Shown: piece after piece, positions 47,812-48,836 of the stretch
How the letters are laid out: each line of letters opens with the position of its first letter
Numbering within the stretch: position 1 is the first letter of the stretch
From: an uncultured Candidatus Nitrosopumilus sp.
GTDB lineage: Archaea; Thermoproteota; Nitrososphaeria; Nitrososphaerales; Nitrosopumilaceae
DNA: 64,000 bases
Reading direction: 5' to 3'
NCBI GenBank assembly: GCA_951812645.1
Contig: CATOSM010000002.1
Span: 62,001 to 126,000, forward strand
Notes under the pieces: generated by a model
What the model was told of the DNA's origin: nothing
The model's database searches: none
What the model saw: only the letters and a program-made list of their open reading frames with translations
Made by a program: the position numbers and the translations under genes

Positions 47812-48306
47812 GTGAAGTTACCTGATTCTCTAAGAGACCAGCTGAAAATCCCCCTTGGAATTTTATTGCCTGATAGTCAAGCTGATAAAAATGGCATCCA
47901 AAAGTATCTCTCTGATGGCTCGTATGTAATTACAGTTGGTGATAGAACCACAGAAAAAATGACTGACTTTGGTTTAATTCCCTCATTACAAATTGTTGAC
48001 GGTCAAGAAAAAAGAGAAAAACGCATTGCCCCAAAATTAGAAAATGCCACTGAACTAACTGTAGATAATCCTGCAGCAGAAATCACACCTGCAAGTATCT
48101 CTATTATCAAAAAAGCTTTCACCCTGGAATCCCCTGTGAGACTTTTTGTTAATGGTGAGGAGGATCTTTTGGTTCTTCCAGCATGTGTTCATGCTCCTGA
48201 AAATACCGTTGTATTGTACGGCCAACCAAATGAGGGACTAGTCATAGTCGATGTTACTGCAGAAATTAGAAATAAAGTACAAACGCTACTTGATTTAATG
48301 GAATAA
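47812..48306 (+). CDS. GTP-dependent dephospho-CoA kinase (DUF359)
   Basis: A 164-residue protein starting at GTG 47812, 5 nt after the Mrp gene. DUF359 motifs: LGILLPD, YVITVGDRTTEKM, LQIVDGQEKR and FVNGEEDLLVLPA, in the order of the archaeal GTP-dependent dephospho-CoA kinases. It would catalyse the last step of coenzyme A synthesis. Confidence 0.9.
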   Translation: MKLPDSLRDQLKIPLGILLPDSQADKNGIQKYLSDGSYVITVGDRTTEKMTDFGLIPSLQIVDGQEKREKRIAPKLENATELTVDNPAAEITPASISIIKKAFTLESPVRLFVNGEEDLLVLPACVHAPENTVVLYGQPNEGLVIVDVTAEIRNKVQTLLDLME

Positions 48307-48307
48307 T

Positions 48308-48368
48308 CGGGGCGTGATGAGACGGTGGCTGTATGATTGATGATTACCACACTAAAACCTCTGACCCT
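48308..48368 (+). ncRNA. Predicted C/D box sRNA
   Basis: Immediately after the preceding stop: a GGGG strand, box C GTGATGA (48314-48320), a 12-nt guide (48321-48332), D'-like ATGA (48333-48336), C' TGATGAT (48338-48344), a 16-nt second guide region (48345-48360), box D CTGA (48361-48364), then a CCC strand that can close a terminal stem with the GGGG. Order, spacing and length (about 60 nt) fit archaeal guides for rRNA/tRNA 2'-O-methylation. D' is a variant of CTGA. The target is not assigned. Confidence 0.65.
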
Positions 48369-48458
48369 GTTAATTCATAATTTACCAAATCAAAATACAC
48401 TAAACTTTGCACAACAATTGACATTTCAAGATAAACACAGATTCTATCAGGCATAATT

Positions 48459-48836
48459 GTGAAATTAGATCCTGATCTTACACTGCAAATTTTAGAAAAA
48501 GTCGGCATTTACTCTAGTCATTTTTCAGTTTCTGAACCTCAGATTCTATTAACTACTAAGGAAGTTTTAGATGCTCCAAAAGAAAAGACTGAAGGCAGAC
48601 GTACTTCAGCCTACAAATATTATGGGGTATCTTATCTGCAACACAATCTTGTTTTCATTAACGTGAGAAAAATACCTGATGAAAAAACCTTGGAGAATAC
48701 TATAGTTCACGAATTAATCCATATGAGATTTCCCTATCTTGCCCATGGTAAAAGATTCAACAAATTAGTAAGACAAGGACTTGGGGGAAAAACTTTTCCG
48801 CCATATCGAAAGAGAAGTAAGATCGCCTCTATTTGA
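48459..48836 (+). CDS. SprT-like zinc metallopeptidase
   Basis: A 125-residue protein from GTG 48459. Catalytic zinc motif TIVHELIHMRFPYLAHGKRF (H-E-x-x-H plus a downstream His). A compact SprT/YgjP-like fold. The substrate is unknown; related enzymes act on DNA-protein crosslinks or as general peptidases. Confidence 0.82.
   Translation: MKLDPDLTLQILEKVGIYSSHFSVSEPQILLTTKEVLDAPKEKTEGRRTSAYKYYGVSYLQHNLVFINVRKIPDEKTLENTIVHELIHMRFPYLAHGKRFNKLVRQGLGGKTFPPYRKRSKIASI

Follow-up and report, generated by a model that had tools for sequence, protein, structure and literature searches.

The window examined here, a stretch of 64,000 nucleotides (G000:C2:62001-126000) of a 2.2-Mb archaeal genome, contains a complete C/D box sRNA gene at positions 48308 to 48369, found by sequence inspection two bases 3′ of the stop codon of a DUF359 gene. 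The identity of the element as a C/D box guide RNA, as put forward in the initial annotation, is near certain. Strong support comes from conservation across the order, the anatomy of the boxes, covariation in the terminal stem, the presence of the machinery genes, and sub-threshold matches to C/D families of Rfam. The RNA is of an ordinary kind, but it is unusually constant. Judging from the sequence comparisons below, we consider it probable that the sRNA is transcribed with the DUF359 gene and that its D′ guide directs fibrillarin to methylate C456 of the organism's own 16S rRNA (presumably C522 in E. coli).

All four boxes lie in the right order and are enclosed by a short terminal stem, as claimed before; what went unstated earlier is that the D′ box (AUGA) and the C′ box (AUGAUUA) are each one base away from the textbook CUGA and RUGAUGA. 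On the forward strand, the 5′ strand of the stem, CGGGG (48308 to 48312), pairs with CCCUG at 48365 to 48369, forming 5 bp in the window copy. The upstream stop codon ends at 48306 and the stem begins at 48308, in agreement with the start two nucleotides after the stop given in the initial annotation. The C box GUGAUGA (48314 to 48320) has the form RUGAUGA in 88 of 95 aligned copies. It is followed by the 12-nt spacer forming the D′ guide, GACGGUGGCUGU (48321 to 48332), the D′ box (48333 to 48336), a 3-nt D′-C′ loop (48337 to 48339), the C′ box (48340 to 48346; RUGAUUA in 65 of 84 distinct copies), a variable 14-nt D guide region (48347 to 48360), and the D box CUGA (48361 to 48364). Across the 95 copies the D′ box is AUGA in 74, UUGA in 10, CUGA in 5, and another sequence in 6, and these variants fix D′ at 48333 to 48336 with a spacer of exactly 12 nt. 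A D′ box read as CUGU at 48329 to 48332 was rejected, since the spacer would be 8 nt and relatives have CUGA or UUGA at 48333 to 48336.

We infer that family f1, to which the organism belongs, is Nitrosopumilaceae, f2 the Nitrosocaldus group, and f8 Nitrososphaeraceae. Among the 84 distinct copies, most of those from f1 have a D′-C′ loop of 3 nt, and in f8 the loop can reach 21 nt; the spacer before the D box, 14 nt in the window copy, ranges from 9 to 18 nt in relatives with variable sequence. In some Nitrososphaeraceae-like genomes (loci L129, L130, L133, L140, and L144) the loop expands to a possible hairpin (UUUUC...GAAAA), which perhaps turns the k-loop into a k-turn.

On the two strands of the 64 kb the four-box pattern is present a single time, and none of 300 dinucleotide shuffles contains it. 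C and D boxes with a 3-bp stem alone also occur once in the window, against 0.15 times per shuffle. Because the pattern was defined after the element had been seen, conservation is stronger evidence than the shuffle test. Within the window, every Rfam family stays below its gathering score; in a permissive search of 101 bases, all eight sub-threshold matches were C/D box families, the best of them sR20 (RF01140, E=8e-5). In sR20 the C, D′ (AUGA), C′ (AUGAUU), and D boxes follow one another in the same order and at the same distances as here, but the guide sequences differ; our RNA scores 28.7 bits, below the gathering score of 44, and is not a member. Given such short C and D boxes in an AT-rich region, an intergenic stretch might resemble the C/D consensus by chance. 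That explanation is vanishingly improbable, being refuted by the search with a 22-nt core, the class-wide model matches, and the column invariance within the genus, with the covarying stem arguing against it as well.

For the genus, 30 loci including our own were fetched by the DUF359 protein, and 29 are usable, as one (L011) stops at a contig edge. The RNA stands directly after the DUF359 stop codon in 29 of 29, and all of these loci keep the boxes, the conservation among sister species on which the initial annotation had made its reading depend. The D′ guide, rightly defined there as the 12 nt before D′, is invariant in 12 of 12 columns, and the D′ box and the D box (four of four columns) are likewise invariant; the C and C′ boxes each keep 6 of 7. 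In the 3′ flank, by contrast, 6 of 31 columns are invariant at 48370 to 48400 and 0 of 50 at 48401 to 48450.

Beyond the genus, the 22-nt core was found with at most three mismatches in 114 of 250 order genomes, all of them f1, f2, or f8, and a reversed control pattern in 2 of 250. A covariance model built from 48 sequences has matches at E≤0.1 in 298 of 400 genomes of the class, so that conservation extends to hundreds of genomes, and it has a single match in the window at E≤1. Family counts, tallied by hand and partly via subtraction, give matches in 210 of 222 f1 genomes, 206 of them at E≤2e-6; at the same threshold there are 60 in f8, 6 in f2, 1 in f3, and 1 in f19. Members score high by construction in a model built from them, and the independent part of this evidence is the new genomes together with the core search. 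One f2 genome (G091) has no model match, and among the f1 genomes without a match G031 is a contig-edge case. Weak matches in f6, f10, f12, f14, and f16 (E 0.03-0.08) were excluded from the members; L230 (f6), the only locus fetched from these families, looks spurious on inspection. The f15 match (G050, E=2e-4) is a doubtful member whose C, D′, and D boxes deviate. A pattern scan of a public genome collection gave at least 80 loci, with some thermophilic archaea and bacteria among the matches listed, and none of the 10 loci inspected had a convincing full C/D architecture. One such bacterial locus still scores 33.8 bits with the covariance model; therefore scores near 30 to 38 bits alone are no proof of kinship.

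The terminal stem covaries. Four of its pairs are modeled, and all four change on both sides across the 95 aligned copies, with 92.4% of cells pairing; cells with a double change number 37 against a shuffled mean of 3.7, in an alignment that was fitted to the model and so leans towards the model structure. In addition, the genome encodes predicted protein partners, the fibrillarin and Nop5 genes adjoining each other at G000:C1:1798076. As to the assembly itself, its reported contamination is 8.79%, and identical tRNA regions repeat on small contigs (C1, C5, C6, and C7; L065/L066/L067, L081/L082, L083/L084, and L101/L102); it may be partly redundant.

The upstream gene (47812 to 48306, forward strand) belongs to Pfam PF04019 (DUF359, E=3e-36) and resembles GTP-dependent dephospho-CoA kinase. 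Its best NCBIfam model, NF041125 for the Thermococcales GTP-dependent dephospho-CoA kinase, scores below its own cutoff. The name dephospho-CoA kinase, used from the start, is therefore likely but stands by homology only. Neighboring genes encode an Fe-S P-loop NTPase and an H+-pyrophosphatase. The next gene (48459 to 48836) encodes 125 aa with a HELIH motif, presumably a SprT-like protein, and similar sequence lies 3′ of the RNA in most of the genus loci listed; the product has no Pfam or NCBIfam match at E≤0.001.

To follow the gene order, 89 of the 114 pattern matches were paired with the listed DUF359 matches (25 were not paired), and with G098 lacking a row n is 88. The RNA core lies 6 to 41 nt downstream of the DUF359 protein match on the same strand in 84 of these 88 genomes. 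Furthermore, in genomes that lack a strict pattern match, 12 of 20 sequences flanking DUF359 on its 3′ side contain the RNA, and DUF359 is just upstream in 27 of 30 diverged or distant loci, the other three all being f19. According to the available part of PMC7994747, the majority of archaeal C/D genes have no promoter of their own, and 25% overlap the 3′ end of a gene. Given the shared strand and adjacency in 84 of 88 genomes, co-transcription with DUF359 is plausible, and read-through would be the usual source of the transcript. It is not obligatory, because in G237 the RNA is encoded on the opposite strand, and it lies 2.7 kb away in G266 and about 0.7 kb away in G228 and G270. The same adjacency would suit an element that acts in cis in the 3′ UTR of the DUF359 mRNA, such as an L7Ae-bound k-turn that stabilizes or regulates the message, in place of a free guide. 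We regard this as very improbable: besides the opposite-strand copy and the three copies 0.66 to 2.7 kb off, three f19 loci have no DUF359 beside the RNA, and a k-turn alone needs no invariant 12-nt guide with exact D′ spacing.

Targets of the D′ guide were sought in the organism's own 16S, 23S, 44 distinct tRNA sequences, and SRP RNA. The only run in guide register of at least 9 bp with at most one GU pair is 16S 453 to 461, CAGCCGCCG, which pairs with guide positions 2 to 10 through eight Watson-Crick pairs and one GU; the 44 tRNA sequences and SRP RNA gave no such match. We take this site to be the 530 loop in helix 18. Guide duplexes generally extend over no more than about ten bases. According to the available part of PMC7994747, the methylated base is the one opposite the fifth nucleotide upstream of D′. 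The base predicted to be methylated, opposite guide position 5, is C456 of the organism's own 16S. Of the two guide complements that the initial annotation proposed to search against 16S, 23S, and tRNAs, that of the D′ guide has this 16S site as its best match.

The complementarity alone is only suggestive, with a chance level of 2-28%. An equally good match was obtained with 114 of 400 guides after shuffling and with 89 of 400 12-mers from the window, and permuted guide columns reached the score in 209 of 2000 cases against all RNAs, 109 of 2000 against rRNA, and 50 of 2000 against 16S. An earlier, looser complementarity score was dropped, as 61% of shuffles reached it.

The variation of the guide among relatives supports the 530 loop as target. 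At guide positions 3-6, 8, and 9 all 95 copies agree. Position 7 has U in 93 copies and C in the other two (G083 and the doubtful G050), each of these bases pairing with G. At position 10, 92 of 95 copies have C or U, which likewise pair with G; the weaker U, present in 24 copies, is accompanied in 24 of 24 by a G at position 11 that pairs with the following base of 16S. Both patterns fit a 530-loop target, while A at position 2 in 6 of 95 copies breaks a predicted pair. The substitutions are few and shared by descent, and no probability is attached to them. The 16S was read from the organism's own genome only; the 530 loop is generally the same in other genomes. We regard this loop as the likely target of the D′ guide.

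The RNA might instead be a genuine C/D box sRNA whose D′ guide has another target, either a stable RNA or a conserved mRNA, or which acts as an rRNA chaperone without methylation. The modest chance level of the match leaves room for this, and so does the wobble at position 7, kept in 93 of 95 copies although C would pair better. Perfect complements of CAGCCACCG occur at six places in the genome, one of which is the sRNA gene itself; the other five would speak for another target, but they lie in loci without an Rfam RNA and were rejected. Moreover, no better site than the 530 loop is present in 16S, 23S, the 44 distinct tRNA sequences, or SRP RNA, and the change of position 7 to C in two genomes fits a target G, not A. 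We therefore consider a different target or a chaperone role unlikely.

Of the two guides to which the initial annotation assigned target sites, only the D′ guide is conserved. The D guide of the window copy drifts, 3 of 14 columns being invariant in the 29 genus loci, and D guides within the order, screened against our own rRNA (the window's own guide more widely), have no consistent target site. Probably the D guide has no fixed target within the order.

Methylation of the 530 loop could then proceed as follows. The sRNA would be transcribed together with the DUF359 gene and the transcript trimmed to the k-turn-protected body, to which L7Ae, Nop5, and fibrillarin would bind at C/D and C′/D′. 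Guide positions 2 to 10, extended to 11 in some lineages, would pair with CAGCCGCCG of the 530 loop in 16S helix 18, and fibrillarin would methylate the 2′-OH of the base opposite position 5. The D half may keep its boxes for assembly, leaving the D guide free to drift within the order.

The f19 lineage, a separate one within the class, may use both halves. In five f19 genomes (G279, G282, G289, G287, and G273) there is a C/D RNA whose D′ guide has the core seen here and whose D guide, UGAAGCGACU, is common to the five; the loci are L212, L214, and L215 (each 1501-1566, L215 on the minus strand), L223, and L229. Their membership is based on the shared guides in five genomes, not on the covariance-model score. 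With our own 16S as a stand-in for that of f19, UGAAGCGACU pairs over 9 to 12 bases with 16S from 1346, which we take to be the h44 decoding site, so that the D guide would point to E. coli position 1408. None of the three f19 loci checked has a DUF359 match beside the RNA, and the likeness to the RNA of the order may stem from common descent or from convergence. The f19 genomes (L216-L220, L222, L224-L228, and L231) also contain several further C/D-box-like RNAs with other guides (e.g. GAUGAUGAGACGACGGU...), common to several genomes.

Our RNA resembles the archaeal C/D box sRNAs described in the available part of PMC7994747 in box order, terminal k-turn stem, and 12-nt D′ guide, as well as in its location at a 3′ gene end, where it would need no promoter of its own, and in the same machinery genes. 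It differs in that D′ and C′ are one base off consensus and the D guide is variable, and above all in that one guide is almost frozen across the order; archaeal C/D guides are described there as fast-evolving, with rapid turnover, and most numerous in thermophiles. The closest parallels in the available part of PMC4644070 are Tte sR114, Iho sR21, Pca sR28, and Sac sR115, C/D sRNAs of thermophiles whose D′ guides are also predicted to target 16S helix 18, but at the equivalents of E. coli A535 and G515, not C522. For helix 18 the same source predicts methylation at 13 positions, spread over five of its seven archaea; the mesophile M. maripaludis has none. In a study of selected archaea including Nitrosopumilus sediminis AR2, C/D RNAs appear only in Pyrococcus furiosus in that study's data (available part of PMC11431127). 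Our search of open-access literature turned up no account of C/D RNAs from Nitrosopumilus or from ammonia-oxidizing archaea.

We tentatively propose, as a possibility that is somewhat short of probable, that ammonia-oxidizing archaea share a near-frozen guide directed at the 530 loop (16S C522) that goes back at least to the ancestor of their families and perhaps to that of the class, that strong purifying selection acts on it as on few other C/D guides of mesophilic archaea, and that the f19 RNA also guides 16S h44 near 1408. If so, in f19 one RNA would serve two sides of the A site. The guide barely changes across ammonia-oxidizing archaea, marine and soil, and its likely target is the decoding center of the small ribosomal subunit. 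It yields a precise prediction, a single 2′-O-methyl group in some of the ocean's most abundant archaea.
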